35,906 nucleotides of DNA from an uncultured Flavobacteriales bacterium. GTDB lineage: Bacteria; Bacteroidota; Bacteroidia; Flavobacteriales; Crocinitomicaceae. Shown here piece by piece: positions 4,952 to 34,987 of this stretch. Where the stretch lies: assembly GCA_946478775.1 (NCBI GenBank), contig CAMLDR010000020.1, positions 1 to 35,906 on the forward strand, in the 5' to 3' direction. The position numbers and the translations under genes are program-made. Numbering within the stretch: the stretch's first letter is position 1; each line of letters opens with the position of its first letter. The notes beneath the pieces were generated by a model, which did not search any database, was not told the origin of the DNA, and saw nothing but the letters and a program-made list of their open reading frames with translations.

Positions 4952-4982
4952 GATTATGTAAATTCTGCGAAATTTTCTATAA
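4952..4982 (+). promoter_or_regulatory. 21-bp direct-repeat box upstream of the GH130-GT4 operon
   Basis: ATTATGTAAATT with TGTAA at 4957-4961 and TATAA exactly 21 bp later at 4978-4982, on the same strand as the operon. The proximal element lies about 67 bp before the ATG at 5049. It matches nine other boxes in the window. It could be an activator site overlapping a promoter or a specialised promoter; the sequence alone does not decide. The rest of the 4730-5048 gap holds the divergent promoter of the secreted protein and no gene. Confidence 0.6.
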
Positions 4983-5048
4983 CACAAAAGCTTCACTCAC
5001 AACTGACCTTTACACCCTGGGTTGATTACAGTTCCCGGGAACACAGTT

Positions 5049-6098
5049 ATGATTCAGGTTACAAAAGAAGGCGTATTATTGAAAAGAACCACTCATGACT
5101 TTGAAAGTCACGGAGTACTCAATCCTGCTGTCATTCGTGAAGGCAATACCGTTCATCTTTTTTACAGGGCAGTAAAGCCGGGAAACCATTCCACTATTGG
5201 TTATTGCAAACTGGACGGTCCGCATGAAATTGTGAGCCGGAATACCGAACCGATTCTTGTTCCCGAATTCGATTATGAATCATTGGGCGTGGAAGATCCG
5301 CGAATCTGCCGCATTGATGCGATTTATTACCTCACTTATACCGCTTACAACGGATTGAATGCATTGGGGGCACTGGCAACTTCCAGTGATTTGAAACATT
5401 TCGAAAAACATGGCGTGATCGTTCCCCAATTCTCTTATTCTCAATTCGAATCACTGACCAAAGGTGGCTGGGAAATGGGAGACCGTTACCTGGGTTACTG
5501 CAATGCCGATCCATTTATCCAGCAAAGTAATCTCAACAACTTGATCTGGGATAAGGATGTCATGTTCTTTCCCCGCAGAATTGATGGGAAACTGTTTTTT
5601 CTGCACCGGATAAAACCCGATATCCAACTGGTGTCAATTTATGACCTCAGTGAACTAACTCCTGCATTTTGGGAAGATTATGTTTCGCGATTAAAACAAA
5701 ATACGATCCTTTTTCCCAAATACGAACACGAAATAAGCTATATCGGCGGTGGTGCTCCTCCTGTTGAAACAGAGTCTGGCTGGCTGCTGATCTATCACGG
5801 AGTGAAATGTACCGCAGAAGGAAATATTTACTCTGCCTGTGCTTCCTTACTGGACCTTCACAACCCGAAAATAGAACTTGCACGTTTACCATACCCCTTG
5901 TTTGAACCGGAACATTCCTGGGAATTACACGGAGAAGTCGACAATGTCTGCTTTCCCTGCGGGACAGCTTTGTTCGGCGACACATTATACATCTATTACG
6001 GTGCGGCCGATAGACAAATTGCCTATGCATCCCTGAGTCTAACAGAACTCATTTCAGAACTCAAACTTAATACAATTAAAGATGAAACATCCAGTTAA
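5049..6098 (+). CDS. Glycoside hydrolase family 130 protein (beta-mannoside phosphorylase/hydrolase type)
   Basis: Single-domain five-bladed propeller protein of about 349 residues without a signal peptide, so cytoplasmic. Family signs: an early NPA-x-I...HLFYRA segment, G-V-E-D-P-R-I (about residues 80-86, containing the conserved acidic residue of GH130), YLTYTAYN, a mid-protein FFPRRIDGK, GGGAPPVETESGWLLIYHG, and the terminal YYGAADRQIAYA. GH130 enzymes cleave beta-mannosidic bonds, using phosphate or water; which applies here cannot be read by eye. I chose the ATG at 5049 rather than a TTG at 5022 because the family homology begins there. It overlaps the downstream glycosyltransferase by 17 bp, so the two are surely cotranscribed, and the operon carries the 21-bp repeat box. 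Confidence 0.9.
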   Translation: MIQVTKEGVLLKRTTHDFESHGVLNPAVIREGNTVHLFYRAVKPGNHSTIGYCKLDGPHEIVSRNTEPILVPEFDYESLGVEDPRICRIDAIYYLTYTAYNGLNALGALATSSDLKHFEKHGVIVPQFSYSQFESLTKGGWEMGDRYLGYCNADPFIQQSNLNNLIWDKDVMFFPRRIDGKLFFLHRIKPDIQLVSIYDLSELTPAFWEDYVSRLKQNTILFPKYEHEISYIGGGAPPVETESGWLLIYHGVKCTAEGNIYSACASLLDLHNPKIELARLPYPLFEPEHSWELHGEVDNVCFPCGTALFGDTLYIYYGAADRQIAYASLSLTELISELKLNTIKDETSS

Positions 6099-8427
6099 CA
6101 CCAATCGATTCGCTCAACCCTCTTTCCTGAATCATTTTCCTGAAACCGATGTAAAGCTATCAAAACTGGAAGTTCCGATCGTTCTTTTGATCTCTTCCTA
6201 TCCTCCGAGAGAATGCGGAATAGCAACCTACTCACAGGATTTACTGGAAGCTTTGAAACAACAGTTCGGTCATTCCTTTGAATTACAGGTATGCGCACTC
6301 GAAAATGAATTTGTGGACCATCAGTACCCAAAAGAGGTCACACATACACTTCAGACAGATACTCCGACCGAATATACTGCGCTGGCCGATAAAATAAACA
6401 ATGATAAACGGATCAATTTAGTACTGATCCAGCATGAATTCGGACTTTTCCGGATGGATGAAGAAAATACTTTCCTGAATTTTATCCAGAATATTGAAAA
6501 ACCACTGGTTACTGTATTTCATACGGTGCTTCCGAATCCGGACAAGAAACGGAAAACGCACGTTCAGAACATTGGAATATTCTCTGATTCGATTGTTGTT
6601 ATGACCAACAATGCGGCAGAAATATTAAAAGACCAGTATGCGATCCATCCGAAAAAGATCACGGTTATTGCACACGGAACGCACCTTGTTCCTCATCACG
6701 ACAAAGACCAGCTGAAACAAAAGTTCGGTCTGAAAGGAAAAAAGATCCTGTCCACTTTTGGTTTATTGAGTTCCGGAAAAGGAATTGAGACCACTTTGGA
6801 AGCACTTCCCCAAATTGTCAGTCACCATCCGGACGTAGTTTTTCTGATCATGGGAAAAACCCATCCGGGAGTTATTGCATCGGAGGGAGAAGCCTACAGG
6901 GATGCTTTGAAAGCAAAAGTTGCCAATTTGAAACTGGAAGATCACGTGATTTTTGTCAACAAGTATTTATCCCTGAAAGAATTGCTGGAATACTTGCAGT
7001 TAACGGACATCTACCTTTTCACGTCCCGCGATCCGAACCAAAGTGTTAGCGGAACTTTCTCTTACGCCATGAGCTGCGGTTGTCCGATCATTTCCACCCC
7101 GATTCCGCACGCGAAAGAAGTTCTGGATGCTGAAACAGGAATCATTGTGGATTTCAATAATCCGGACCAATTGGCATCCGCTATTGAAAAATTACTGGAA
7201 GACGACACCTTAAGAGAACGATTCACACTGAACGGCTTAGAACGCATTGCTCCTACTGCCTGGGAAAACTCTTCAATTGCACACGCACGCCTGTTCCAGC
7301 GATTGACATCCAACCAGATAGAATTGCAATATGTGCTTCCGGACATCAACCTGGCGCACTTCAGCAAATTGACGGATCGTTTCGGAATGATCCAGTTCTC
7401 CAAGATCAATCAGCCCGATCTGGATTCCGGGTATACGCTGGATGATAACGCACGGGCAATGATTGCCAGCTGTATGTATTATGAATCAACACTTGACGGG
7501 GCAAGTCTAGTGGCTATTCAAACTTACCTCAAATTTATTTCCTTTTGTCAGCAGCCAGACGGTACATTTCTGAACTATGTGGACCAGGACCAGCTGTTTT
7601 CAGATCATAACCACGAAACCAATCTTTCGGACTCGAACGGCCGCGCAATCTGGGCATTGGGCTTTCTGATCTCCAAGCAACGCATTCTTCCCGAAGGATT
7701 CGGAACGCTGGCAAAATCGCTGTTGGACAATGCATTGAAAACCATAGAAGAGATGCATTCTCCCCGGTCAATCGCTTTTACGATTAAAGGGTTGTATTAC
7801 AGCAACCTGGAAGTACAGTCCGAAGTGATTACGTCATATATCAAATTATTGGCTGACCGATTGCTGAACATCTATCGCCATGAATCGGAAGTGAATTGGT
7901 CCTGGTTTGAAAGTTACCTGACTTATGCAAACAGCGTAATGCCGGAAGCTTTGCTTTGTGCATGGAAAGAAACAGGTGATCATTTCTACAAAGTCATTGC
8001 AAAAAAAACGTTTGACTTCCTGCTTTCACTGACATTTAGTAAAACGGGAATTAAACTGATTTCCAATAAAAGCTGGCTCCATAAAGGAGAAAAACCGGAA
8101 GAATACGGGGAACAACCCATCGATGTTGCTTACACCATTTTGGCTTTGGACCATTTTCACGAAGTTTTTGGAAATGATACTTACCTGGAAAAATCAAAAA
8201 TAGCATTCAGCTGGTTCCTTGGAAACAATCATTTGTCGCGTATTATCTACAATCCGGGCACAGGAGGCTGCTACGACGGATTGGAGCGGGAGCACATTAA
8301 TCTGAACCAGGGAGCAGAATCGACAGTAAGTTATCTGATCGCCAGAATGACAATTGAAAAACAACAAAAAGCCAGTTTGGTTCATACAAAAAAGAAACTT
8401 TACCTGGTGGATAAAGAAACAAATTAA
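6082..8427 (+). CDS. GT4 glycosyltransferase fused to a C-terminal helical (alpha/alpha-toroid-like) domain
   Basis: 781 residues. The N-terminal half (about 30-410) is a GT-B fold glycosyltransferase: SSYPPRECGIATYSQDL near residue 35 (glycine-rich N-lobe loop), HEFGLF, and a C-lobe with LSSGKGIET and VSGTFSYAMSCGCPIIS. The usual family-4 E-x7-E pair is absent, with the SGT-x-x-YA-x-x-x-G-x-P-x-I form found in a distinct GT4 subgroup. The C-terminal half (about 430-760) starts SGYTLDDNARAMI and is helical with repeated aromatic/Gly patterns, resembling glycan-processing alpha-toroids. It probably builds an intracellular or cell-envelope mannose/glucose glycan that the overlapping GH130 enzyme turns over. 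Donor and acceptor are unknown. Confidence 0.85.
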   Translation: MKHPVNTNRFAQPSFLNHFPETDVKLSKLEVPIVLLISSYPPRECGIATYSQDLLEALKQQFGHSFELQVCALENEFVDHQYPKEVTHTLQTDTPTEYTALADKINNDKRINLVLIQHEFGLFRMDEENTFLNFIQNIEKPLVTVFHTVLPNPDKKRKTHVQNIGIFSDSIVVMTNNAAEILKDQYAIHPKKITVIAHGTHLVPHHDKDQLKQKFGLKGKKILSTFGLLSSGKGIETTLEALPQIVSHHPDVVFLIMGKTHPGVIASEGEAYRDALKAKVANLKLEDHVIFVNKYLSLKELLEYLQLTDIYLFTSRDPNQSVSGTFSYAMSCGCPIISTPIPHAKEVLDAETGIIVDFNNPDQLASAIEKLLEDDTLRERFTLNGLERIAPTAWENSSIAHARLFQRLTSNQIELQYVLPDINLAHFSKLTDRFGMIQFSKINQPDLDSGYTLDDNARAMIASCMYYESTLDGASLVAIQTYLKFISFCQQPDGTFLNYVDQDQLFSDHNHETNLSDSNGRAIWALGFLISKQRILPEGFGTLAKSLLDNALKTIEEMHSPRSIAFTIKGLYYSNLEVQSEVITSYIKLLADRLLNIYRHESEVNWSWFESYLTYANSVMPEALLCAWKETGDHFYKVIAKKTFDFLLSLTFSKTGIKLISNKSWLHKGEKPEEYGEQPIDVAYTILALDHFHEVFGNDTYLEKSKIAFSWFLGNNHLSRIIYNPGTGGCYDGLEREHINLNQGAESTVSYLIARMTIEKQQKASLVHTKKKLYLVDKETN

Positions 8428-8431
8428 ATGA

Positions 8432-8917
8432 ATGATGCAAAAGAAGGCGAATGCGCTCATTAAGTATATGCAAACTGAAGGCTTAACATTGGTTTTAGCT
8501 GAAAGTATGACTTGCGGACTTGCAGCCATGAAACTTTCTTCCTGCATTGGTGTTTCGGATGTGTTGCTTGCTTCTCTTGTATGTTATACACCTAAGGCTA
8601 AAATGCAGCTTTTACAAGTGAAGCCGGCAACCATTCAGCACCACACCTGTGAATCGCACGAGGTTACCGGGGAAATGGCGGGCAATCTGTCCAAACTGGT
8701 CAAGGCCAATGTTTACGCAGCCATTACCGGCCTTGCATCTTCAGACGGAAGTGAAACAAAAGACAAACCTGTTGGAAGTGTCTTTTATGCTGTTCGCTAC
8801 AAGCGGAAAACACATGATTTTCGAAAAGTGTTTCGCGGGACTCCGCTGGAGATTAAGAAAAAAGCCACTGCAGAGTTCTATCACCTTATTCTGAAAGTGA
8901 TAAAGGAAAATAAATAG
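8432..8917 (+). CDS. CinA C-terminal / PncC-like protein with degenerate motifs
   Basis: 161 residues, the usual size of a stand-alone CinA C-terminal domain (nicotinamide-nucleotide amidohydrolase, which turns NMN into nicotinate mononucleotide in pyridine-nucleotide salvage). The first conserved motif AESCTGG reads AESMTCG here (about residues 23-29). GVSDVLLASLVCYTPKAK matches the G-x-S-x-x-x-x-G-x-V-x-Y block, and the third block reads ITGLASSDGSETKDKPVGSVFYAV instead of ITGIAGPDGG. The fold is clear; activity is doubtful because several glycines and prolines are replaced. The start lies 4 bp after the glycosyltransferase stop, so it is the third gene of the operon. A neighbouring ATG at 8428 runs into a stop after 11 codons. 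Confidence 0.8.
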   Translation: MMQKKANALIKYMQTEGLTLVLAESMTCGLAAMKLSSCIGVSDVLLASLVCYTPKAKMQLLQVKPATIQHHTCESHEVTGEMAGNLSKLVKANVYAAITGLASSDGSETKDKPVGSVFYAVRYKRKTHDFRKVFRGTPLEIKKKATAEFYHLILKVIKENK

Positions 8918-8952
8918 TTCAAAATATTGAAAATCAAAGGGTTAACATAAAC

Positions 8953-9240
8953 TTATTTGCTTGTTTTTACAGCTATAAACTCATCTGCTTTGTTTTTCAG
9001 CTTATTTGTCAAATCCTTCGCTTCTCCCAAAAGCTTTTCCCTGGTCTTCTTCCCTTTATCGGGTGCCAGTAAAATACCGGCAGCTAAGCCTACGGCAGCT
9101 CCTGCAGCCAAACTTCCAACTACTTTCGAAATGGTATGAGAAGATTCTTCCCCCTGGTTCTTTCTGTCTGATTTCATGGTCAATGATTTATTGATGATGA
9201 ATTTTAAGATGTGTTCTGCTAATTTCAATTTCGCGTCCAT
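8953..9240 (-). CDS. YtxH domain protein (small stress-type glycine-zipper protein)
   Basis: 95 residues with the hallmark VVGSLAAGAAVGLAAGILLAPDKGKKTREKL: a glycine/alanine-rich membrane-inserting helix followed by APDKGKKTR and an amphipathic Lys-rich helix. YtxH proteins are general-stress proteins of unknown biochemical role. The start at 9240 has AAGGAACT just upstream; an internal ATG at 9177 would give 74 residues beginning MKSDRKNQ and cannot be excluded. The 21-bp direct-repeat box lies 68 bp before the start, placing the gene in the proposed stress regulon. Confidence 0.8.
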   Translation of the reverse strand: MDAKLKLAEHILKFIINKSLTMKSDRKNQGEESSHTISKVVGSLAAGAAVGLAAGILLAPDKGKKTREKLLGEAKDLTNKLKNKADEFIAVKTSK

Positions 9241-9307
9241 AGTTCCTTTTTTCGAATGATTACTCCATACTCTTCCACTAAGATGTGTTTTTTGAAAGCA
9301 AAAAGTG

Positions 9308-9338
9308 TTACAGCGTAACCTGCGTTTGTTACATATAT
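9308..9338 (-). promoter_or_regulatory. 21-bp direct-repeat box upstream of the YtxH gene
   Basis: On the minus strand TGTAA occurs at 9333-9329 and again at 9312-9308, exactly 21 bp apart, preceded by ATATATG. The proximal copy lies 68 bp from the YtxH start. Same geometry and orientation as the other boxes in the window. Confidence 0.65.
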
Positions 9339-9352
9339 CTTAGTAATTGAAA

Positions 9353-10015
9353 TCATTCCCCTGTCTCATCATGAGGAGCATTTACTTTTTTGGATTGTGA
9401 GGAACCGGCCTGCCGCAGATAAATAGACAGGAAGATAATAGCAAAAATGGAAAGGAATTCACTTTGCCAGTTTTGAAAAGACTCAAACCAGAATTTGGAA
9501 TGCCCGAGGTATTCAATAGAAGTAGTTATGGGTTTTCCATCCAATAATTGCTGTTCGTTAAAATCCAGGAAACTGCCATACCAGTGTAGCCCAAAGGAAA
9601 GTAAAAACAAAAGCGTTAAAACGATTGAAAGGGAATACTTATAAAAAATCAATGCTATTCCGCCTTTTTTTACCGGCCAGGGAGAGTTTTTTAAAGGCTC
9701 GCATTCCCCTTCTTTGTCACTGGATGAATCTTCCATCGGTCGGGATTCGGAAGATCCTTCCTGTTTCATATAAATCGTCAGAATAACAAATAAAGCCATT
9801 TGAAAGAATTCACTTTCCCAATTTTCAAATGTTGACTGTAAAAAATGTCCGCTGATGAGGTATGTACTCAAATCAGTTCCTGACCGGTTATAGGAAACTA
9901 AAAAGTCATTGTGCTCGTGCCATCCCGTATAAATTTGACCTGCCAGTGAAAATACCATCAGGATTAAAAAGGCAATAGATAGTGCATTTCGTTTAAGAAA
10001 ACCTGCTCTTTTCAT
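9353..10015 (-). CDS. DUF6766-type membrane protein with an internal duplication
   Basis: 220 residues, four predicted membrane helices arranged as two similar halves. Half 1 (about 8-90): SIAFLILMVFSLAGQIYTGW ... ENWESEFFQMALFVILTIYMKQEGSS. Half 2 (about 125-215): SIVLTLLFLLSFGLHWYG ... QNWQSEFLSIFAIIFLSIYLRQAGSS. The pattern W-x-SEF-hydrophobic helix-IY-x-(K/R)Q-x-GSS is repeated, and a charged Ser/Glu/Lys linker separates the halves. This matches the DUF6766 family as I remember it; function unknown. It is likely transcribed from the repeat box at 10264-10289 through a long leader containing a hairpin. Confidence 0.75.
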   Translation of the reverse strand: MKRAGFLKRNALSIAFLILMVFSLAGQIYTGWHEHNDFLVSYNRSGTDLSTYLISGHFLQSTFENWESEFFQMALFVILTIYMKQEGSSESRPMEDSSSDKEGECEPLKNSPWPVKKGGIALIFYKYSLSIVLTLLFLLSFGLHWYGSFLDFNEQQLLDGKPITTSIEYLGHSKFWFESFQNWQSEFLSIFAIIFLSIYLRQAGSSQSKKVNAPHDETGE

Positions 10016-10105: not shown

Positions 10106-10149
10106 AAAAAAGGGGGAGTTTAACCTTCACCTCAATCTCCCCCTTTTTT
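10106..10149 (-). terminator. Hairpin with T-runs on both sides in the leader of the DUF6766 gene
   Basis: Perfect 13-bp stem: AAAAAAGGGGGAG (10106-10118) and its complement (10137-10149), 18-nt loop. T-runs on either strand make it a bidirectional terminator-like structure. On the minus strand it lies between the 21-bp repeat box and the DUF6766 start, so it could end a short RNA or attenuate the gene. Confidence 0.75.
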
Positions 10150-10255
10150 ACACTTAACCCACACTACCACACATGGACCACTTAAATTCTTGTTTGTTCG
10201 GCAGATACTTTAGAAGCTCTTAAGCCTTGAAATCAAATTTAAGCCCTCAAAAACA
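10106..10255 (-). ncRNA. Candidate short leader RNA / sRNA, family member A
   Basis: Inferred transcript from just downstream of the repeat box (proximal copy 10268-10264) to the hairpin at 10149-10106. Just before the hairpin the minus strand reads ATGTGTGGTAGTGTGGGTTA, a possible 6-codon leader peptide (MCGSVG, stop), and resembles members B and D in the stretch G-T-G-G-T-T-A-G-G-T-A-A-A-A. This accounts for much of the 10016-10344 gene-free gap. No transcript evidence is available to me; the ends are approximate. Confidence 0.4.
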
Positions 10256-10263
10256 GGAACTGC

Positions 10264-10294
10264 TTACAAAATTCTAAAAGTGATTTACATAATT
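10264..10294 (-). promoter_or_regulatory. 21-bp direct-repeat box upstream of leader A / DUF6766 gene
   Basis: Minus-strand GAATTATGTAAATC with TGTAA at 10289-10285 and a second TGTAA at 10268-10264, 21 bp apart. It has the 14-base distal consensus shared exactly with the cphA box at 26693-26718. The DUF6766 start is 249 bp from the proximal copy, a long leader. Confidence 0.7.
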
Positions 10295-14418: not shown

Positions 14419-14480
14419 AATTATTGTAATTAGTATTTAATTTCTATTCCCGAAAATAGGGCGTCAGAAGCGTAAAATCA

Positions 14481-14511
14481 TTACATAATCATGCAGGTGA
14501 TTTGCATAATT
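14481..14511 (-). promoter_or_regulatory. 21-bp direct-repeat box upstream of the DUF892 gene
   Basis: Minus-strand GAATTATGCAAATC (TGCAA at 14506-14502) and TGTAA at 14485-14481, 21 bp apart. The distal half carries the same T-to-C change seen in the second cyanophycinase box. The proximal copy is 63 bp from the ATG. Confidence 0.65.
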
Positions 14512-14611: not shown

Positions 14612-15154
14612 TTAAACTCTTTGTTCCATCATTTCTCTGTAAGCCGATGGACTGAGTCCCGTATTCTTTTTAAATTGGTTTGAAAGATGTGCCACACTGC
14701 TGTAATTCAGCTTAAAGGCAATATCTGACAAATTCATATCACTATTCGATAAAAGATCTTTGACCCTTTCGGTCTTTTTTTGAATAATGAATTGCTGCAC
14801 TGTGATCCCTTTCGCTTCGGAAAAGATCCCTGAGAGATACGTATAATCATGTCCGATTTTTTCGCTCAGGTACTCGGAGTAATTGATGTTTGGAATTTCA
14901 TCCGAATCGCAAATCAACTCGATAATGGTATCTTTCATTTGAACAACGAGTGTTCTTTTTTTGTCTTCCAGGAGCTCCAGCCCTGATTTGGATAAATTTG
15001 TTCTCAATACTTCCAATTGTTCACTTGAAAGTTCTTTATTTGTTTCTACTATTCCAAGGTCTACATTAACGCACTGGACCCCGAGTTTTTCTATTTCAGC
15101 CTGTACGAGCATTTTACAGCGCGAACTGACCATGTATTTTATATATAATCTCAA
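14612..15154 (-). CDS. AraC-type transcriptional regulator with N-terminal HMA-like domain (paralogue 1)
   Basis: About 180 residues. The C-terminal ~100 residues are an AraC DNA-binding domain: YLSGIFSEAKGITVQQFIIQKKTERVKDLL..., first HTH around LSDIAFKLNYSSVAHLSNQFKK, ending NTGLSPSAYREM. The N-terminus (LRLYIKYMVSSRCKMLVQAEIEKLG...VDLGIVE) has a ferredoxin-like beta-alpha-beta pattern resembling heavy-metal-associated domains but without a CxxC. I chose the TTG at 15154 because the paralogue at 15922 starts with TTG-AGA at the homologous position; a further TTG at 15190 is also possible and no upstream ATG exists. No repeat box precedes it. It sits among stress genes and is a candidate regulator of the box. 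Confidence 0.85.
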   Translation of the reverse strand: MRLYIKYMVSSRCKMLVQAEIEKLGVQCVNVDLGIVETNKELSSEQLEVLRTNLSKSGLELLEDKKRTLVVQMKDTIIELICDSDEIPNINYSEYLSEKIGHDYTYLSGIFSEAKGITVQQFIIQKKTERVKDLLSNSDMNLSDIAFKLNYSSVAHLSNQFKKNTGLSPSAYREMMEQRV

Positions 15155-15328
15155 ATTAAAACGAGTTTTGTCATTCTTAATGGCTAACAAAAAATAAGCT
15201 CAGCCTTTTTTTTGTTTCTTACTTCTTGTGCAATGACTCACCTAATTCACTTCACTGAATTGTCTTTACCCAATTTTCAATGTTCATAATTGTCATACGG
15301 GGTTGTGCACCGTCCCCTTGTTTGTTAG

Positions 15329-15922
15329 TTACACCTTCACTCCTTTTTCACATTCATTTTCTCCGAATCCGTTTTCCTTACGGACTTCTTTACGTTTATT
15401 CCTTATTTCTATATAATACGACGGCCTTAACCCTGTATTCTCTTCAAAGATCTTGGTAAGCTGATCCCCATTTTTAAAGTTGAATAGTTTAACAATCTCT
15501 TTTAGTTCCAAATTTTCATATAACAGCATTTCTTTGATCCGTTCAATCTGCTGTAATGTGATGTACTGAAGTAAATCAACTCCATGAACCTGGGAAAAAA
15601 TCTGCATGGTTTCAGGGTCCGTTAAACCCAAACTCTTAAGATATATTGGGTAATCCGTAACCGGCATTTCGGGATTCCTGTCAATCAAGTCTTTGATTAA
15701 ATGAGAAATCCTGTCCAAAAACTTACTATTCCCGGGATCTAACACCTCATATCCCAACTCTATGAGACCTTCTTTCAACTGAAGCAGCTGTGCTTCATTC
15801 AATTCATCCTGGAATTCAAGGACACCCTGATTAACATCCGGCAGAATCCCTAATTTCACCAACTCCTCTCCTATTCTGTCACGGCAGCGACCTCCTACCA
15901 TGTACTTCACGTAAATTCTCAA
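15329..15922 (-). CDS. AraC-type transcriptional regulator with N-terminal HMA-like domain (paralogue 2)
   Basis: 197 residues, homologous along its length to the gene at 14612. It starts MRIYVKYMVGGRCRDRIGEE from a TTG codon (15922-15920). The C-terminal domain is a diverged AraC fold (LQQIERIKEMLLYENLELKE then IVKLFNFKNGDQLTKIFEEN, TGLRPSYYIEIR), where the second HTH is recognisable and the first is weaker; the canonical alanine (IA-x-x-x-GF) is replaced by IVKLFNF. A charged C-terminal extension follows. The two genes are tandem on the minus strand with about 170 bp between, so probably from a duplication. Confidence 0.8.
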   Translation of the reverse strand: MRIYVKYMVGGRCRDRIGEELVKLGILPDVNQGVLEFQDELNEAQLLQLKEGLIELGYEVLDPGNSKFLDRISHLIKDLIDRNPEMPVTDYPIYLKSLGLTDPETMQIFSQVHGVDLLQYITLQQIERIKEMLLYENLELKEIVKLFNFKNGDQLTKIFEENTGLRPSYYIEIRNKRKEVRKENGFGENECEKGVKV

Positions 15923-16072: not shown

Positions 16073-16225
16073 CTAAGGTTTACTACTTGGAAGCCATTGC
16101 ATGATTAGTGTAAAAACTGCAACTACGAGCGTTAAATGAAAAGATCCCCCTTCTTCAAACTTAAAGTATCCGATAGACCATCCCATGCCTACCAAAATGG
16201 ACAATGTGCTTACTACTACTCTCAT
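16073..16225 (-). CDS. Small two-helix membrane protein, Lmo0937-like (second copy)
   Basis: 50 residues from the ATG at 16225 (MRVVVSTLSILVGMGWSIGY FKFEEGGSFHLTLVVAVFTL IMQWLPSSKP). An upstream ATG at 16288 would add 21 residues, but the paralogue at 13638-13796 begins at the same MRV, so the short form is preferred. Two membrane helices with GW-x-IGYF-x-F-x-x-GG-x-x-HL-x-LVVAV between match the Lmo0937-like pattern. The repeat box and hairpin upstream (16353-16499) give it a long leader of about 250 nt. Confidence 0.7.
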   Translation of the reverse strand: MRVVVSTLSILVGMGWSIGYFKFEEGGSFHLTLVVAVFTLIMQWLPSSKP

Positions 16226-16352
16226 AATTAATCTTTTAATGTTGAACTTCAATCTTTTCATTCCGATCATTACCGGACTTGATTTCACTTAAAAATTATG
16301 GAAAAGGAAAAAAACAGACCCATTTCTACTAACTTAACTACCGGTTAAATTT

Positions 16353-16374
16353 AAAAGGGGCTTTCACCCCTTTT
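16353..16374 (-). terminator. GC hairpin with T-run in the leader of the Lmo0937-like gene
   Basis: AAAAGGGG (16353-16360) and CCCCTTTT (16367-16374) with a 6-nt loop. On the minus strand it is followed by TTTTAAATTT. It lies between the repeat box and the gene start, as in leaders A and C. Confidence 0.65.
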
Positions 16375-16465
16375 ACCTAACCACTCGATTTACCACATAG
16401 GGTTTCACCTACTTTCAAAATCTAATTTTCATGTCTTCTTGATCAAATTTAGTATTGTGCTAAAA
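16353..16465 (-). ncRNA. Candidate short leader RNA / sRNA, family member B
   Basis: Inferred transcript from below the repeat box (16499-16473) to the hairpin. The stretch before the hairpin, GTGGTTAGGTAAAAGGGG on the minus strand, matches member D (TTAGGTTAAAAGGG) and resembles member A. An ATG occurs at the equivalent position but opens only a 2-codon frame. In the rest of the 16289-16750 gap I see no gene. Confidence 0.4.
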
Positions 16466-16472: not shown

Positions 16473-16501
16473 TTACATTATTAACTATCTACATTTACAT
16501 A
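16473..16501 (-). promoter_or_regulatory. Direct-repeat box (22-bp spacing) upstream of leader B
   Basis: Minus-strand TGTAA at 16499-16495 and 16477-16473, 22 bp apart rather than 21, with ATATATGTAAAT as the distal half. It is the one spacing variant in the set and therefore the least certain. Confidence 0.5.
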
Positions 16502-26575: not shown

Positions 26576-26692
26576 GATTTATTAATTAAATAGTGTGTGT
26601 CATTTTTAGAGGCCAAAAGGATTGATAAACATCTGAACATCAATCCCAATAAGCTTCTCAGGTAAAAGTAGGAAGGGAACGAAAGTGGTTAC

Positions 26693-26723
26693 TTACACAT
26701 TTCTTCGGTCGATTTACATAATT
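26693..26723 (-). promoter_or_regulatory. 21-bp direct-repeat box upstream of the cyanophycin operon
   Basis: Minus-strand GAATTATGTAAATC with TGTAA at 26718-26714 and TGTAA at 26697-26693, 21 bp apart. Its distal 14 bases are identical to those of the box at 10264-10289. The proximal copy is 118 bp from the cphA ATG. Besides this box and the three phased GTAA motifs at 26851-26874 I see nothing else in the 26576-27046 gap. Confidence 0.7.
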
Positions 26724-26874: not shown

Positions 26875-27046
26875 TTAGGAACATTGAATGCGGGATTTGG
26901 AATTTCAAAAGTGGGAATAGTACAAATTTTCAAAAATTAAGTGTAACAGGATTTTTACCAATCCTCCTGAATTTTAGTACTCTCACAGATAGGGCCTTGT
27001 ATGGTATGTGGGTGTATAATATATCTATAACCAAAAAAAAAAGATC

Positions 27047-29096: not shown

Positions 29097-29966
29097 TTAC
29101 TTATCCTTTCTTTTTTTGGGGTACATCAGTTCATAAGTCCGGATATTGAACTTGCATTTTTTTACGAGCAAATGCACCCGCAGATTATCAACATAAATGG
29201 CTTCATCCTTTTTAAGTTCATCGATATTCGTGTTCTCAATGTCTCTTCCGTCAATAATGATTACCATGCCGGAGCCTAAACATTTTGCTTCGTATCCCTT
29301 TTGAATGATGATGGCCGTATCTTCTCCCAATCCGATACCCATTTGACCGGGATTCCGGATAATGGCCTGTGCAAGTCTGCCGAAACGCCCCCGTTTTAAA
29401 AAATGCGTATCTACAATACAGCCTTCCACCAGCCCAAGTCCCCCGCCCGTTTTCAGGTCAGATTCAAGAAGCGCTTCGTGATTCCCACCCGACTGGATCA
29501 TTACTTCCGGAGCAACAGCCGCCCCGGCACTGGTACCGGCAACAGTGAAATCTTTATCTGAAAAGTATTTTTCCCGGATCGCGTTTGCAATAGCTGTTCC
29601 TCCTATAATGGTGGCTATTTTAAATTGATCACCTCCTGCAAACAGGACCGTTTTTGCTTTTTTTATGCGGGCTATAAAGGCTTCCTCACGAGCTTCACTT
29701 TTTGTTTGGATATTCATAAAACCCACATTTTTGTAACCCACCTTTTTAAATACTTCCTCGTACTTTTTTTTCTGTTTTTCGGGTTCGTTTGATGCTGTTG
29801 TGATTACTTCAATCCTCGGATTAGAGGACTTGCCTGAAACCAGCTTTTTAAGGATCTCCATTTCTACGAACTTCGGGTTATGAGAAGACATTTCTAATTT
29901 TCCTTCTCCTTTGTCTTCAGCTCCGCCAATAATAAGTAATCTTCCCTTTGGAATAATCTGATTCAT
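29097..29966 (-). CDS. cphB: Second cyanophycinase
   Basis: 289 residues, homologous throughout to the operon copy: GRLLIIGGAEDKGEG, TVLFAGGDQFKIATIIGGTAI, nucleophile motif VAGTSAGAAVAPE, DTHFLKRGRFGRL, GIGLGEDTAIII. All catalytic landmarks are kept, so it should also release beta-Asp-Arg from cyanophycin. It stands as a single gene, separated from the first by about 5 kb, and has its own repeat box 59 bp upstream. The separate control suggests timed or conditional mobilisation of the reserve. Confidence 0.93.
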   Translation of the reverse strand: MNQIIPKGRLLIIGGAEDKGEGKLEMSSHNPKFVEMEILKKLVSGKSSNPRIEVITTASNEPEKQKKKYEEVFKKVGYKNVGFMNIQTKSEAREEAFIARIKKAKTVLFAGGDQFKIATIIGGTAIANAIREKYFSDKDFTVAGTSAGAAVAPEVMIQSGGNHEALLESDLKTGGGLGLVEGCIVDTHFLKRGRFGRLAQAIIRNPGQMGIGLGEDTAIIIQKGYEAKCLGSGMVIIIDGRDIENTNIDELKKDEAIYVDNLRVHLLVKKCKFNIRTYELMYPKKRKDK

Positions 29967-30024
29967 GATCGTTCATTTAATTGTTGTACCTGTCGAAAAA
30001 TAGGAACGAATGACAAAAAAGAAC

Positions 30025-30055
30025 TTACAAAATCACTTCTGTCATTTGCATAATT
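30025..30055 (-). promoter_or_regulatory. 21-bp direct-repeat box upstream of the second cyanophycinase
   Basis: Minus-strand GAATTATGCAAATG (TGCAA at 30050-30046) and TGTAA at 30029-30025, 21 bp apart. The proximal copy is 59 bp from the ATG. The box lies immediately after the stop of the MscS gene. Confidence 0.65.
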
Positions 30056-30056
30056 C

Positions 30057-31121
30057 TCACTCTGTTTCGCTCTCCGCATCCCCAATAAGAAAAGGCTGGG
30101 TGGGAAATGCAAAGCAGATGGACCGCTCCTTGAAAACCTTAATAATTTCCATATAAATGGCGTGCTGAACATCCATGTAAATCCCGTAATCGGGGCTCAG
30201 CACATTGTAAACAAATTCAAAATTGATGCTCCAGTCGTCAAGCTGGGCCAAATGTCCGCGGCTGTATTCCACATGCGGCTGTTTGTCAATAATGGTTTTC
30301 ACCATCCCGGGAATTTCTTCGAGCACTTCGATTGGTGTATTGTACACTACGCGCAGTAGAAAAACGATCCGCCGGTTTTCCAGCCGCTTGAAGTTATTAA
30401 CCCGCGAATTCGTCAGATCACTGTTGGAACAAACCAGCTGATCCCCGCTCAATGTGCGGATCCGGGTAGTCTTGATACCGATCTTTTCTACCGTACCTGA
30501 CTGATCTCCGATCGTGATCGAATCACCGATCTCAAAAGGCTTGTCAAAGAAAATAGCGAAATAACTGAAAAGATCTCCCAAAATGGTTTGTGCTGCAAGT
30601 GCCACGGCAATCCCTCCTATCCCCAGCCCGGCAATCAGTGTGGTGACATTGTAACCCAGGTTATCTATCAGGAAAATGATTCCCACGATCCAGATCACCA
30701 CGTTCAGGACAATCATTAATCCCGAGACGGATTGTTCTCCTTCTCCCCGTTCGGCCCGGCGCTTGGTCACTGTCATTAGCAGGCGGCGGAACACCGCGCT
30801 CACCAAACGCAACACGCAAAAAGTAAGCGCAGCCATAAATAATATGTGAATGACTTTATCCGCCCGGGGAGACAAACGCAGCGTGCTGATGGCCAAATAA
30901 AGGAACCCAACATAGAGAATGGGTACTATCAGCCGCTCAATCCCAATAACCAGCAAATCGTCCCAGGTAGCAGAAGTGGATGCCGACCAGGTTTTTAACC
31001 GTTTAAGTACCAAATAGCGGAACAAACGGATTCCTATCACAGAAACCACTACAATTCCCAAAGCCAACAACCAGGAATAAACCGTGTTTCCCCAAAACGT
31101 ATAACCCAAAAATCTTTCCAT
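30057..31121 (-). CDS. MscS-type mechanosensitive channel
   Basis: 354 residues. Several N-terminal helices are followed by the pore helix region IAGLGIGGIAVALAAQTILG, DLFSYFAIFFDKPFEIGDSI (about 160-195), then the conserved beta-domain TIGDQSGTVEKIGIKTTRIRTLSGDQLV-like sequence with SNSDLTNSRVNNFKRLENRR. These are hallmarks of the MscS family: the channel opens on membrane tension during hypo-osmotic shock to release solutes. A repeat box and hairpin lie in its 160-nt leader. Its stop is 90 bp from the second cyanophycinase gene. Confidence 0.92.
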   Translation of the reverse strand: MERFLGYTFWGNTVYSWLLALGIVVVSVIGIRLFRYLVLKRLKTWSASTSATWDDLLVIGIERLIVPILYVGFLYLAISTLRLSPRADKVIHILFMAALTFCVLRLVSAVFRRLLMTVTKRRAERGEGEQSVSGLMIVLNVVIWIVGIIFLIDNLGYNVTTLIAGLGIGGIAVALAAQTILGDLFSYFAIFFDKPFEIGDSITIGDQSGTVEKIGIKTTRIRTLSGDQLVCSNSDLTNSRVNNFKRLENRRIVFLLRVVYNTPIEVLEEIPGMVKTIIDKQPHVEYSRGHLAQLDDWSINFEFVYNVLSPDYGIYMDVQHAIYMEIIKVFKERSICFAFPTQPFLIGDAESETE

Positions 31122-31178
31122 AATCGATCCATTTTAGTAAGCAGAGCAATCAATTAAAAACGTATGCCAGCCTGAGAC

Positions 31179-31199
31179 AAAAAGGGGGCTAGTGCCCCC
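31179..31199 (-). terminator. GC hairpin with T-run in the leader of the MscS gene
   Basis: GGGGGC (31184-31189) pairs with GCCCCC (31194-31199) through a 4-nt loop; on the minus strand TTTTT (31183-31179) follows. It lies between the repeat box and the MscS start, so it may attenuate the gene or end a short RNA. Confidence 0.65.
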
Positions 31200-31273
31200 C
31201 AACTAAAACTTAAACTAATGAAATGCCCATTTTAAGAACTTTTCTGTTCTTAAAGTTAAAACTCAAACATTTC
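31179..31273 (-). ncRNA. Candidate short leader RNA / sRNA, family member C
   Basis: Inferred from the repeat box (31306-31281) to the hairpin end. Upstream of the hairpin the minus strand reads AGTTTAAGTTTTAGTT, similar to member D, and a 6-codon frame MGISLV ends 16 nt before the stem. Ends are approximate. The plus-strand TPR gene begins at 31391; the remainder of the gap shows no gene. Confidence 0.4.
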
Positions 31274-31280
31274 AACCGCT

Positions 31281-31311
31281 TTACACTTGTTTTCTGACTA
31301 TTTACATATTT
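31281..31311 (-). promoter_or_regulatory. 21-bp direct-repeat box upstream of leader C / MscS gene
   Basis: Minus-strand GAAATATGTAAATA (TGTAA at 31306-31302) and TGTAA at 31285-31281, 21 bp apart. The MscS ATG is 160 bp from the proximal copy. Confidence 0.65.
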
Positions 31312-31390
31312 CCTACTATTCCTATTCATCCGGCAGATCGCTGCATGAGATTATTTTTCTTAGTTTTAACCTGCGCGTTCTCTGTGACTT

Positions 31391-33346
31391 ATGAAGAAAA
31401 TAAAATGGATCATTTTTCTACTTGTATTTCCGCTGTGCACTTTAGCGCAAACGGAAACCGATAAACTGTGGAAAGTGGTCCGAAATGAACAGAAAGCAGA
31501 TACTGTCCGCCTGGAAGCACTGCGGCAGATCTGTATGCGCGGTTACTTATATACAAATCCTGACAGTGCGTCCTTCTATGCGGATCAACTCTACGAAATG
31601 GCAGGGAAAATGCATTCCCGAAAATACCAGGCCGCAGCGTTGAATGTTCATGGAGCTTCTTTCTCTTTACGCGGAGATAACACACGTGCCATTACTTATT
31701 TTACCCGCAGTCTGAAAATGATGGAAAAACTGCAGGATCAAAAAGGAATTGCTTCCTCCCTGAACAACATCGGGGTGATTTATAACGAACAGGGGAAATA
31801 CCAAAAAGCAGGAGAATACTACCAGCGGGCACTGACCATCAACAAACGGCTCGGAGATTCGTCTTTGATGGCACTGTCCTATTCCAACCTGGGAAACATT
31901 TACCGCTATCTTGGGAACGATTACAAATCCATCCAGTATCACCAAAAATCCATCCGGATTTATCAAAACATTCAGGACGATTACGGTCTTGGGATGTCCT
32001 ATCATTTCATTGCAGTGACTTATCTGGATATGAAAGACTATCAAAAAGCATTGGAATTCACTGAAAAATGTATCCCTTATTACAAAAAATCCGAAAATCT
32101 GCTTGGGCTTCCCGAAGTATTCAATATCATGGGCAAGATCTACGATAAAAAAGGAAACACCCAAAAAGCGATCTTCTACAACAAGCAAGCCCTGGATCTG
32201 GCTGAAAAAGTAGACGCTCCCGCAGCAATTCGTGAATCCAGCCAATCGCTCTACGGACATTATAAAAAGCTGGGGAAATACAAAGAGGCGCTCGAAATGC
32301 ATGAATTGTACCTGGTGAATCGCGATAAAGTGACCAACGAAGAAAGTCAGCAGGAATTGATCAAGCAGGAACTTTCCTACGAATTTGAGAAACAGCAGGC
32401 GCTGGATCAGAAAGAGCATGAGAAAAAACTGGCTATCGCCGCTGAGAAAGAGCAGCAGCAAAAATTAATCATTCTTTCAATCGGCATTGGATCTTTACTG
32501 GTCCTGATCTTTGCCGTGGTGGTCATCAACCGCCTCCGGGTAACACGAAGACAAAAAGAGATCATTGAACGCCAAAAAGACCTGGTGGAAGAAAAACAGA
32601 AAGAAATTCTCGATTCCATTACCTATGCGAAACGTTTACAGGATGCCATTCTTCCTCCAATAAGCACTTTTAAAGAACACTTTCCGGAAAGTTTTATTCT
32701 CTACAAGCCCAAAGATATTGTTGCAGGAGATTTTTACTGGATGGAAAAAACAGGAGATTCCATTTTGATCGCCGTTGCAGATTGTACCGGTCATGGGGTT
32801 CCCGGAGCATTGGTCAGTGTGGTCTGCAGCACGGCATTGAATCGGGCAGTGCTCGAATTCGGACTCACTGATCCGGGAGAAATCCTGGATAAAACACGTG
32901 AGATCGTTCTCGAAACTTTTGCTAAAAGTTCCAAAGATGTGAAAGACGGAATGGACATTTCACTGGCCGCAATCCACACAAAAACATTCGAAATCCAATG
33001 GGCAGGAGCCAATAATCCGCTTTGGTATATTTCAGACAATACATTCAACAGCATTACTGCAGACAAACAACCAATCGGAAGTTCTTTTGATCAGAAACCG
33101 TTCAACACCCACCAATTGCAGTTAAAAGCAGGAGATTTGATCTTCCTGTTCACAGACGGATATGCCGATCAGTTCGGTGGAGAAAAAGGAAAAAAATTCA
33201 AATATACCCCGCTGAAAGAACTGTTATTAAAGAACTCAACGCTTACCATGTCCGCCCAGGAAGAACTTTTGGAAACCACTTTCGAAAACTGGAAAACCGG
33301 CGTAGAACAAGTGGATGATGTTTGTATGATGGGCGTACAGCTGTAA
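31391..33346 (+). CDS. TPR-containing membrane protein with SpoIIE/PP2C phosphatase domain
   Basis: 651 residues. The start MKKIKWIIFLLVFPLCTLAQ is a signal peptide. Residues about 50-330 are TPR repeats (SLNNIGVIYNEQGKYQKAGE YYQRALTINKRLGD, SYSNLGNIYRYLGNDYKSIQ) in the periplasm. A coiled coil and the membrane helix IILSIGIGSLLVLIFAVVVI (about 358-378) follow, then a linker coil, and the SpoIIE domain (about 420-650) with VAGDFYWME, VADCTGHGVPGALVS, KDGMDISLAAI and IFLFTDGYADQFGG, carrying the metal-binding Asp residues. It likely dephosphorylates a cytoplasmic regulator in response to an envelope signal. Divergent from mscS. Confidence 0.92.
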   Translation: MKKIKWIIFLLVFPLCTLAQTETDKLWKVVRNEQKADTVRLEALRQICMRGYLYTNPDSASFYADQLYEMAGKMHSRKYQAAALNVHGASFSLRGDNTRAITYFTRSLKMMEKLQDQKGIASSLNNIGVIYNEQGKYQKAGEYYQRALTINKRLGDSSLMALSYSNLGNIYRYLGNDYKSIQYHQKSIRIYQNIQDDYGLGMSYHFIAVTYLDMKDYQKALEFTEKCIPYYKKSENLLGLPEVFNIMGKIYDKKGNTQKAIFYNKQALDLAEKVDAPAAIRESSQSLYGHYKKLGKYKEALEMHELYLVNRDKVTNEESQQELIKQELSYEFEKQQALDQKEHEKKLAIAAEKEQQQKLIILSIGIGSLLVLIFAVVVINRLRVTRRQKEIIERQKDLVEEKQKEILDSITYAKRLQDAILPPISTFKEHFPESFILYKPKDIVAGDFYWMEKTGDSILIAVADCTGHGVPGALVSVVCSTALNRAVLEFGLTDPGEILDKTREIVLETFAKSSKDVKDGMDISLAAIHTKTFEIQWAGANNPLWYISDNTFNSITADKQPIGSSFDQKPFNTHQLQLKAGDLIFLFTDGYADQFGGEKGKKFKYTPLKELLLKNSTLTMSAQEELLETTFENWKTGVEQVDDVCMMGVQL

Positions 33347-33425
33347 ATGAGTCAACTGAATCCACTAACAGAATCCTTTCCCTAGATGTTCCTTCAACCT
33401 TAAAAAATCCTAAAACTGTGAGTTA

Positions 33426-33451
33426 TGTAAGCTTCGCAAATTAGGATATAA
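33426..33451 (+). promoter_or_regulatory. 21-bp direct-repeat box upstream of the outer-membrane barrel gene
   Basis: Plus-strand GAGTTATGTAAG (TGTAA at 33426-33430) with TATAA at 33447-33451, 21 bp apart. The proximal element is 57 bp from the ATG at 33508. Like the GH130 box it has TATAA in the proximal position. Confidence 0.6.
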
Positions 33452-33507
33452 CAGAATTGAAGCGCTTTTCAGCCACCTTTAATTAATAATCAATTAATTG
33501 ACAGAAC

Positions 33508-34125
33508 ATGAAAAGGATTTTAACAATGGCTGTGGCGATAATAACTTGCTCTGCAGCTTTTTCCCAGGAAACTCCGGGAGATGCAACCTCCACATTTTCA
33601 ATCGGGCCGGCTATCGGATTTGGTCATACGGGCGTGCGCAGCACCTCGGGGACAGATGTTTTCAAGCCCAACTGGAATGCGGGGATCATTCTCAATTACA
33701 GTAAAATGAAACACATGGGCATGGCCGCCGACATTCTTTGGTCGATGGAAGGCGCAAGAGTTCAAAGCGGCGGTTATGAAACGGAACTCACCATGCAGTA
33801 CATCCGTGTACCGCTTAAAGTGGCATTCTTCTTCGGTGATTTCGAAGACAGTTTCCGCCCTAAAATCACCATCGGTCCGTCTATGGGATTCCTGCTGAGC
33901 GCAACCAGCGACTCGGATGCTCCCGATGCATCGAAAACAGATGTTACCGGATTTTACAATACATTTGACATTGGCGGAACGGCTTCCATCGGTTTCAACC
34001 TGGAACTGGCTGATAATATCTGGCTCAACACCGATTTCAATTATTACACCGGTTTCAGACCGATCCGCGGAAGTCAGTACAATTCCAATTTTGGATTACG
34101 GGCTGGTGTAGCTTTCGGATTGTAA
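33508..34125 (+). CDS. Outer-membrane beta-barrel protein (PorT / OMP_b-brl_2-like)
   Basis: 205 residues. The start MKRILTMAVAIITCSAAFSQ is a signal peptide. The mature protein has alternating strands with PRIGPSMGF-like ITIGPSMGFLLSA, LNYSKMKHMGMAADILW, VPLKVAFFFGD, and closes with FGLRAGVAFGL, a barrel C-terminus ending in an aliphatic residue. The FDIGGTASIGFNLELADNIW strand is typical of small Bacteroidota eight- to ten-strand barrels (porin-family/PorT-like). Function unknown; likely outer-membrane structure or transport. A strong terminator follows. Confidence 0.82.
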   Translation: MKRILTMAVAIITCSAAFSQETPGDATSTFSIGPAIGFGHTGVRSTSGTDVFKPNWNAGIILNYSKMKHMGMAADILWSMEGARVQSGGYETELTMQYIRVPLKVAFFFGDFEDSFRPKITIGPSMGFLLSATSDSDAPDASKTDVTGFYNTFDIGGTASIGFNLELADNIWLNTDFNYYTGFRPIRGSQYNSNFGLRAGVAFGL

Positions 34126-34160
34126 ATACTTGTTTTCATCCGCTGTGGTGGATCAGAAAT

Positions 34161-34196
34161 AAAAATCCCCGACATTTTTACCGTCGGGGATTTTTT
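34161..34196 (+). terminator. Intrinsic terminator after the barrel gene
   Basis: AAAAATCCCCGAC (34161-34173) and GTCGGGGATTTTT (34183-34195), a 13-bp stem with a 9-nt loop followed by more T. It lies after the barrel gene stop. Confidence 0.88.
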
Positions 34197-34303
34197 ATAT
34201 TTTGAGATGATTCAATGCAAACTTTTCAAAAACAGAACAAAAAAGTTAATCCTGCGAAAACTATTACTTAGATTCGAATAAATCATAAACCAGTAGCCTC
34301 CAT

Positions 34304-34798
34304 ATGGAAAAACGAAACAGCATCTTGAAAAACATTCTTATAACGCTTAGTTTAGTTGCCGGCATCGTAATTGTTGGTTTTATAATATGGGCTGTTCGAC
34401 TTGCAGAAGCATTTAGTTGGAGACCACCAAGTACTGAATTGGAGCTTTCTCAGAGTGAGACTGAATGGAAAAAACAGGTCCAAAAAAAATACGATTGTAC
34501 AATATATTTTATTGGCTTAGATGATTCTTTTATGGAAGATTCAGTTATCTACATGGACTTTGATGTGGAACCGGAATCACCGCTACAGCACTCGCTGATC
34601 AATTTCGAATCAACAGAAAGAATAATTAAAGATTTATCTACCTCCTTTCTAAAAAAATCCAAAGGAAGGGAAGCTCAAACATGCATTCAATTTAAATTCA
34701 ACAATCTATTTTCTACTGATTCTACAAAACGTCCAAATTATCCAGCTTCCAAAACAAGTATGTATCATTTTAAAACAAAAAGTGTACTCATATTTTAA
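34304..34798 (+). CDS. Uncharacterised membrane-anchored protein
   Basis: 164 residues. One N-terminal hydrophobic helix (ILITLSLVAGIVIVGFIIWAV, about 11-31) behaves as an anchor or uncleaved signal, followed by a soluble part rich in Ser/Asp/Glu with YDCTIYFIGLDDSFMEDSVI and a Phe/Asn-rich C-terminus. I recognise no family. Base composition is clearly more AT-rich than neighbouring genes, which may indicate recent acquisition or fast evolution. The start has no obvious ribosome-binding site (common in this phylum). It converges on the orphan RNA candidate D. Confidence 0.6.
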   Translation: MEKRNSILKNILITLSLVAGIVIVGFIIWAVRLAEAFSWRPPSTELELSQSETEWKKQVQKKYDCTIYFIGLDDSFMEDSVIYMDFDVEPESPLQHSLINFESTERIIKDLSTSFLKKSKGREAQTCIQFKFNNLFSTDSTKRPNYPASKTSMYHFKTKSVLIF

Positions 34799-34844
34799 TG
34801 GAACAAAATCCTATTTCAAATGTGATCCGGGAAAACGGAGTATC

Positions 34845-34949
34845 AAAAAAGGGACTTGCGTCCCTTTTAACCTAACTTAAAAACTTAAACCAAAACATGT
34901 GTGCTACTACAAACCTTTGATAGTCTCAAAATTACTCACACCAATCGTT
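34845..34949 (-). ncRNA. Candidate stand-alone sRNA, family member D
   Basis: The repeat box (34982-34957) is followed on the minus strand by about 90 nt and then the hairpin AAAAGGGAC/GTCCCTTTT (34847-34855, 34860-34868, loop TTGC) with a T-run. An 8-codon frame MFWFKFLS ends just before the hairpin. No minus-strand gene follows (the next gene is on the plus strand), so a free short RNA is more likely than a leader. The hairpin can also end the plus-strand gene at 34798. The gap to 35011 shows nothing else. Confidence 0.45.
34847..34868. terminator. Hairpin with T-runs on both strands (candidate D / end of the 34304 gene)
   Basis: A 9-bp stem, GGGAC core, with a TTGC tetraloop; T-rich tails lie on both sides, so it can terminate the plus-strand membrane-protein gene and the minus-strand RNA D. 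Confidence 0.75.
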
Positions 34950-34956
34950 CGTCTCT

Positions 34957-34987
34957 TTACACTATCCTGTAAAGAATTTACACATTC
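34957..34987 (-). promoter_or_regulatory. 21-bp direct-repeat box upstream of RNA candidate D
   Basis: Minus-strand GAATGTGTAAATTC (TGTAA at 34982-34978) and TGTAA at 34961-34957, 21 bp apart. It lies just after the VOC gene stop and has no gene downstream on its strand. Confidence 0.6.

Follow-up and report, generated by a model that had tools for sequence, protein, structure and literature searches.

A TGTAA direct repeat at a fixed distance from sigma-A-type promoters as the probable operator of an AraC-family stress and storage regulon in Fluviicola-like Bacteroidota

We analysed a 35,906-nucleotide stretch of DNA from an uncultured Flavobacteriales bacterium of the Crocinitomicaceae (contig CAMLDR010000020.1 of assembly GCA_946478775.1; hereafter referred to as the window), in whose intergenic regions the word TGTAA recurs as a direct repeat with a period of 21 bp. 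An earlier reading of the letters alone (the sequence-only reading) had reported ten such pairs and ascribed them to a stress/storage regulon read by a LytTR or AraC-type regulator. All ten are present in the window. As claimed, five of them are exact TGTAA-N16-TGTAA (9308, 10264, 26693, 31281 and 34957, all on the minus strand), two have TATAA as the second half (4957 and 33426, plus strand) and two have TGCAA as the first half (14481 and 30025, minus strand), while the site of the Lmo0937-like gene, with its 22-bp spacing, was located at 16473-16499 on the minus strand. That reading had missed a -10 box behind the pairs, an eleventh site ahead of a DUF4142 gene, and conserved short RNAs with hairpins behind four of the sites. 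The elements, the regulator genes and the RNAs are arranged as follows.

4957-4982, plus strand: element upstream of GH130-GT4 (TGTAA/TATAA); -10 box GACCTTTA at 5005-5012.
9308-9333, minus strand: exact element upstream of YtxH; -10 box CATCTTAG at 9278-9285.
10106-10229, minus strand: short RNA A, start placed from the -10 box; hairpin and T run at 10106-10149, -22.1 kcal/mol.
10264-10289, minus strand: exact element upstream of short RNA A and then DUF6766; -10 box TAAATTTG at 10234-10241.
14481-14506, minus strand: element upstream of DUF892 (TGCAA/TGTAA); -10 box TATTTTCG at 14451-14458.
14612-15190, minus strand: AraC1, the proposed activator, a short HTH_18 protein with an HMA-like N-terminal domain.
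15329-15922, minus strand: AraC2, a diverged paralogue (32% to AraC1).
16073-16288, minus strand: Lmo0937-like small membrane protein, with a weak DUF5670 match below the cut-off.
16353-16439, minus strand: short RNA B, start placed from the -10 box; hairpin and T run at 16353-16374, -14.1 kcal/mol.
16473-16499, minus strand: element with 22-bp spacing upstream of RNA B, the Lmo0937-like gene, araC2 and araC1; -10 box TAAATTTG at 16444-16451.
26693-26718, minus strand: exact element upstream of cphA; -10 box TACTTTTA at 26663-26670.
26921-26946, plus strand: eleventh element, upstream of DUF4142 (TACAA/TGTAA), found with a position weight matrix (PWM) of nine window sites; -10-like box GAATTTTA at 26969-26976.
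30025-30050, minus strand: element upstream of the second cyanophycinase (TGCAA/TGTAA); -10 box TATTTTTC at 29995-30002.
31179-31246, minus strand: short RNA C, start likewise presumed; hairpin and T run at 31179-31200, -14.6 kcal/mol.
31281-31306, minus strand: exact element upstream of short RNA C and then mscS; -10 box TAACTTTA at 31251-31258.
33426-33451, plus strand: element upstream of an outer-membrane barrel (TGTAA/TATAA); -10 box CACCTTTA at 33474-33481.
34845-34922, minus strand: orphan short RNA D, start likewise presumed; hairpin and T run at 34845-34868, -12.7 kcal/mol.
34957-34982, minus strand: exact element upstream of short RNA D; -10 box TAATTTTG at 34927-34934.

The exact repeat occurs 5 times in the window, as compared with a mean of 0.07 and a largest count of 1 in 100 dinucleotide-preserving shuffles; the expectation of 0.07 given by the sequence-only reading is thus the same as the shuffle mean. 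With one mismatch allowed, the pair occurs 17 times for 2.76 expected, and nine of the 17 are sites of that reading. The other eight (981, 16088, 18999, 25648, 30185, 31900, 34936 and 35183) lie within open frames or, in the case of 34936, overlap the 34957 site, and we take them to be chance matches although eight is more than 2.76. Single halves have just five bases, which is what a chance origin of the pairs in A+T-rich intergenic DNA would draw on; the shuffles, together with the conservation and the reversed-pattern controls described below, exclude it, and we regard it as negligibly probable. At 34936-34982, the 34957 pair is followed after another 21 bp by a third TGTRA, which immediately precedes the -10 box.

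Superposition of the window sites revealed the third box, NANNTTTR, which begins 22 nt behind the second TGTAA and places TTTR exactly 26 nt behind it. The triple consisting of the pair with up to one mismatch and TTTR occurs 6 times in the window at spacer 16 and offset 26; it is absent at the 13 other spacers tried, and none of the 14 other offsets tried has more than one; 60 Markov-1 simulations gave a mean of 0.017 and a largest count of 1. The box agrees with the sigma-A consensus TAnnTTTG, which PMC9723704 maps at -12 to -5 in Flavobacterium psychrophilum. Because of this agreement, the pair appears to be tied in position to a promoter of the housekeeping type. If the window box covers -12 to -5 as it does in Flavobacterium, the half-sites would lie near -60/-56 and -39/-35. 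Among the F. psychrophilum motifs SM1-SM6 of that paper, the likeness is to the sigma-A motif, which the window -10 fits; its main text contains no match for AraC, TGTAA or direct repeat.

A search with CphA identified four close relatives with 82-87% identity, namely Fluviicola chungangensis, an uncultured Fluviicola and two Flavobacteriales metagenome-assembled genomes, in which the window island is largely syntenic. The window DNA thus stems from a freshwater relative of Fluviicola. The motif scan of related genomes that the sequence-only reading had proposed was carried out with the PWM of nine window sites, some low-scoring matches of which are probably chance, and it found the element ahead of orthologous genes (L and G numbers are our handles for loci and genomes). 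The cphA element is kept in the window and in 7 of 7 relatives (L001-L004, G014, G091 and G074; for the last three, 'Fluviicola-like' is a label resting on gene content), and the DUF4142 element in 4 of 4 (L001-L004), with TACAA, TGCAA or TATAA as its first half. The barrel element recurs in L001-L004, L163 and L177, the GH130 element in L001, L173 and L180, those of YtxH and of 10264 both in L001, L005 and L008, those of the second cyanophycinase and of RNA C/mscS both in L003 and L004, and that of RNA D in L002 and L003. TACAA...TGTAA counterparts of the DUF892 element were found in L027 and L028, ahead of a protein that resembles DUF892 by eye.

The pattern GAATTATGTAAAT-N14-TGTAA-N22-TANNTTT with up to 3 mismatches gave 24 matches in four genomes, as against 0 for the reversed pattern and 0 when the period was set to 22 instead of 21. 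A looser pattern gave 58 matches, against 2 for its reversed form, in seven Fluviicola-like genomes, or 7 to 9 per genome. Since the element is this rare genome-wide, it is no general promoter, in line with the earlier remark that it is not simply every promoter. Targets outside the island include small lipoprotein gene pairs, genes for CsbD-like and Gln/Asn-rich hydrophilic proteins recognized by eye, and an araC gene in G074. The small lipoprotein genes (SCKKDYxCEC) with an element are found in L015, L018, L029, L033, L036, L162, L166 and L182, and stand as tandem pairs in some relatives. Matches in L037/L038, within an open frame, and in L010, overlapping a hairpin, were taken as chance.

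Four window sites (10264, 16473, 31281 and 34957) are followed by a G+C hairpin and T run whose end lies within about 130 nt of the -10 box, ahead of any listed gene; the energies range from -12.7 to -22.1 kcal/mol. Three sites that the sequence-only reading described as upstream of a gene need qualification: those of DUF6766, mscS and the Lmo0937-like gene have a terminator-like hairpin between element and gene. A 29-nt core of RNA A is identical in the window, L005 and L008 and has one mismatch in L001, and a 28-nt core of RNA B is identical in the window, G001, G002, G004 and G014; RNA B as a whole is near-identical across about 80 nt in five sequences. Among 120 family genomes, the RNA A model finds G001, G002, G003, G014 and G091, plus three weak matches (E 0.003-0.009), and the RNA B model finds G001, G002, G014 and G091, plus a weak match at E 0.008 and a second, weak G091 match at 1.8e-5. 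The element stands ahead of RNA A in the window, L154, L155, L157, L158 and the G003 copy (L008), and ahead of RNA B in the window, L001, L002, L004, L148 and L151. A known RNA family was ruled out for RNAs A-D by an Rfam scan of the whole window, which returned 0 matches at E up to 1. RNA A is present without DUF6766 in L001 and L008, so that the conserved target at 10264 would seem to be the RNA and not DUF6766. The RNAs could be either trans-acting or leaders (B of the Lmo0937-like gene and C of mscS), and the similarity of their 3' ends suggests a common origin of short RNAs A-E.

We then related the element to AraC1, scoring AraC1 as present at E 1e-12 in the family and at E 1e-40 in the class. 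The 45 AraC1-positive genomes among the 120 of the family hold 66 element matches against 1 for the control, and the 75 AraC1-negative ones hold 13 against 14; when six Fluviicola-like genomes are set aside, the AraC1-positive remainder holds 27 against 1. Family loci chosen by AraC1 alone (n = 30) contain 12 TGTAA pairs at 21 bp, nine of them in the 24 loci outside Fluviicola, and no other spacing from 12 to 40 exceeds 5 pairs. When 29 loci of the class were picked solely for their similarity to AraC1, the best score among 512 words and spacings of 12-45 went to TGTAA at 21 bp, with 18 pairs (mean 1.03) that are spread over 13 of the loci. The score of AAAGA at 27 comes close to it, with 15 of its 37 pairs from a single locus. 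The same class loci hold 14 exact triples in 100,711 bases. Across 247 Bacteroidia genomes, the exact triple gives 264 matches against 42 for the reversed control; the 82 AraC1-positive genomes account for 183 against 15. Two or more matches are seen in 34 of these 82 and in 14 of the other 165 (Fisher p 2.8e-9, a value uncorrected for the genomes' relatedness).

AraC1 has at least 7,966 relatives at E 1e-10, and genes of the AraC1 type are often preceded by an element of their own. It is exact ahead of the araC genes of L082, L115, L118 and L186 and has one mismatch in L074, L093 and L109, while in L108 and L117 the pair is exact and the -10 is one base off. Contig C56 of G220 has nine exact elements in the stretch 73,625-147,709, and the last of them immediately precedes an AraC1-type gene.

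Several observations weigh against a strict pairing of AraC1 with the 21-bp element. The Lmo0937-like site has 22 bp in four genomes (22 bp in the window, L001, L002 and L004; 21 bp in L148 and L151). The 165 class genomes below the AraC1 threshold hold 81 matches against 27 for the control, and 20 of the 82 AraC1-positive ones have no exact element. Nine of the 14 below-threshold genomes with two or more matches have a weaker AraC1 relative; the other five, G336 (9 matches), G323 (7), G246, G252 and G286, have none at E 1e-8, and the rule linking AraC1 and the element is therefore not perfect. In G336, 8 of the 9 exact elements lie on one 61-kb contig (C62; L139-L141).

These five genomes would fit a different reader of the pair from the same clusters (a response regulator, AraC2 or some unplaced protein), with AraC1 only a co-regulated neighbour whose gene bears the element as any target would. 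Yet the enrichment sits in loci that were chosen by AraC1, and AraC1 presence separates real matches from chance in the family. AraC2 occurs near AraC1 only in a small group; it forms a long branch on the tree and has diverged in HTH2, at the HTH residues that are conserved in the family and kept in AraC1. No LytTR domain was matched by Pfam among the 31 window proteins scanned, and a LytTR reader is therefore not supported. We thus consider another regulator unlikely. Of the regulators that the sequence-only reading had offered, the AraC type is supported by the linkage in family and class and the LytTR type is not; of its two AraC proteins as readers, AraC1 retains the HTH residues and AraC2 does not. 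AraC2 may be a partner or a brake (antagonist) of AraC1.

Outside Fluviicola, we collected 74 sites in 66 loci, with 6 Fluviicola-like loci left out; removal of 4 sites inside open frames and 3 duplicates left 67 distinct intergenic sites. They have TGTGAATNATGTAACTTATTNNAAAANTTNTGTAACAC in common and CANCTTTG at the -10. Beyond the search pattern, TGTGA is conserved at 85-99% per letter and the A of the -10 box at 97%. An ATG-started frame begins within 200 nt in 66 of the 67 sites, at a median of 38 nt behind TTTG. Among 66 proteins encoded there, with counts taken from 25 of the 53 families listed, Pfam assigned ice-binding-like (10), CsbD (5), AraC (4), barrels (3), Band 7 (2), DUF5670 (2) and YceI (1), among others, and BON in the first member; further CsbD-like proteins and one YtxH-like protein were recognized by eye. 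In L100 (137-301; G303), the element stands ahead of a 54-aa frame that resembles a GH130 start by eye, and the fragment has no Pfam match.

Two short boxes 16 bp apart ahead of stress genes also resemble the -35 and -10 of a promoter used by an alternative sigma factor. However, both boxes are the same word, and the third box, of the sigma-A type (NANNTTTG), follows 22 nt on, with its A kept as stated although it lay outside the search and with the ATG at the median distance of 38 nt behind it. Because this third box stands at a fixed offset, we rejected an alternative sigma promoter, which we regard as very unlikely. General stress regulons are placed under sigma factors such as SigB, RpoS and EcfG. 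Their kinds of targets (CsbD, BON, YtxH-like and DUF892-like) are like those found here, whereas the element would be an activator site with a sigma-A -10 and has no dedicated sigma factor box.

The DNA-binding domain of AraC1 is evident (HTH_18 1.9e-17, HTH_AraC 7.4e-13), and the protein reaches no NCBIfam cut-off. Its true start is probably a TTG near residue 13. In the AlphaFold model (mean pLDDT 85), the AraC domain matches structures of AdpA, MarA and SoxS, and the N-terminal unit has the order E-H-E-E-H, its best chaperone match being Atx1, a weak one (E 0.42, probability 0.96). AraC1 lacks the HMA motif MxCxxC and reads MVSSRC. At the first Cys position, 86 family rows have 60 Ser, 20 Cys and 4 Gly (the AraC2 group), with 2 unclear; the Ser/Cys label changes 2 times on the tree, against 18 for shuffles, and the midpoint-rooted tree sets the Cys rows among the Ser rows. 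Exact elements are found in the loci of 19 of the 60 Ser rows and 4 of the 20 Cys rows. The invariant Cys25 suggests a thiol or metal remnant.

Stress-type relatives read MVSxRC and copper-cluster relatives MVCxxC. Nine relatives on named Bacteroidota plasmids (L188-L196; Mucilaginibacter robiniae, Runella slithyformis, Aureibacter, Pontibacter and others) read MVCxxC, and eight of the nine are beside annotated metal genes, L192 having no annotation; copper ATPases, DUF305, multicopper oxidase and RND genes are among the neighbours. They are a probable copper regulator family. The copper-cluster proteins have the same domain order as AraC1 and an exact element in 3 of the 9 loci, two near the araC gene and the third 6 kb away, but differ in that both Cys are kept and in having copper ATPases, efflux pumps and DUF305 as annotated neighbours (8 of 9 loci). 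A tenth plasmid relative, of Runella rosea, reads MVSLRC; two one-mismatch elements separate its gene from a neighbouring ice-binding gene. In the ten plasmid loci, two-mismatch elements number 11 against 3.2 simulated and exact ones 3 against 0; given the background of 3.2, we relied only on exact elements.

The MVCxxC relatives in copper clusters, and exact elements ahead of an Aureibacter gene for Cu/Zn efflux (L190) and within a copper locus of Pontibacter (L191), would also suit an element that is a copper or metal operator, with the stress genes forming part of a metal response. This is rather improbable, as the stress-type proteins lack the first Cys, with Ser in most family rows, and as no copper gene is found among the 31 island proteins scanned. 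Since AraC1 has Ser for the first Cys of MVCxxC, it may sense something else than copper; kin to the copper-cluster regulators, it may thus answer another signal, and its targets suggest drying, salt, cold or starvation.

Taken together, we consider it quite likely that the pair, in its fixed position at sigma-A promoters, serves as operator for an AraC-type activator, most likely AraC1, and that it drives a stress/storage regulon in Fluviicola; the sequence comparisons support the regulon that the sequence-only reading had put forward. The two-turn direct repeat at a fixed place ahead of the promoter is an arrangement that characterizes AraC/XylS operators. AraC1 would bind as two tandem subunits and activate: one subunit would read the upstream half, which is GAATTATGTAA in Fluviicola and TGTGAATNATGTAA elsewhere, and the second the downstream half (TTNTGTAA), two helical turns or 21 bp on. 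With the inner half near -39/-35, the inner subunit would cover the -35 region next to sigma-A and could recruit RNA polymerase. The predicted regulon in Fluviicola comprises cyanophycin synthetase, cyanophycinase, GH130-GT4, YtxH, DUF892, DUF4142, the barrel and several short RNAs, with CsbD-like genes elsewhere. The Lmo0937 element might also switch on araC2-araC1: the Lmo0937-like, araC2, araC1 and DUF892 genes all lie behind the 16473 element on the same strand, which makes a positive loop possible.

In Escherichia coli, AraC at araI1-araI2 is an AraC/XylS activator that acts from tandem half-sites next to the -35. AraC1 is like it in the AraC DNA-binding domain, the two-turn direct repeat and the inner half next to the -35, and differs in being short, in having an HMA-like N-terminal unit in place of the sugar-binding domain, in the Bacteroidota-type sigma-A -10, and in its many targets.

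The evidence leaves about an even chance for a broader proposal, that the general stress response of much of the Bacteroidia involves no stress sigma factor and works by way of a widespread AraC family kin to copper sensors. In this proposal, the Ser branch would answer another signal but have the operator TGTGAATNATGTAA-N16-TGTAA-N22-NANNTTTG in common with the copper branch, and the Fluviicola regulon would have taken in cyanophycin storage and undescribed small RNAs. Searches of open-licence literature turned up neither a master regulator of general stress that is named for Bacteroidota nor, in its PMC part, a description of the element, regulator or regulon. The candidate protein, exact operator and target list are directly testable in cultured strains such as Fluviicola chungangensis. 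Through them, cyanophycin storage would be tied to stress in the Fluviicola group, a very large family whose members are so far just unnamed 'AraC family' proteins would gain a role, and the family would be a case of a differing sensor domain with the operator kept.

Two other genes of the window are worth recording. A protein with a type IX secretion system (T9SS) type A sorting domain and no Pfam match is encoded at 3269-4729. The gene for a TPR-SpoIIE phosphatase (31391-33346), which is weakly akin to SiaA (E 5.3e-52, below the NCBIfam cut-off), is kept in the island without an element, and its product is a possible signalling partner.

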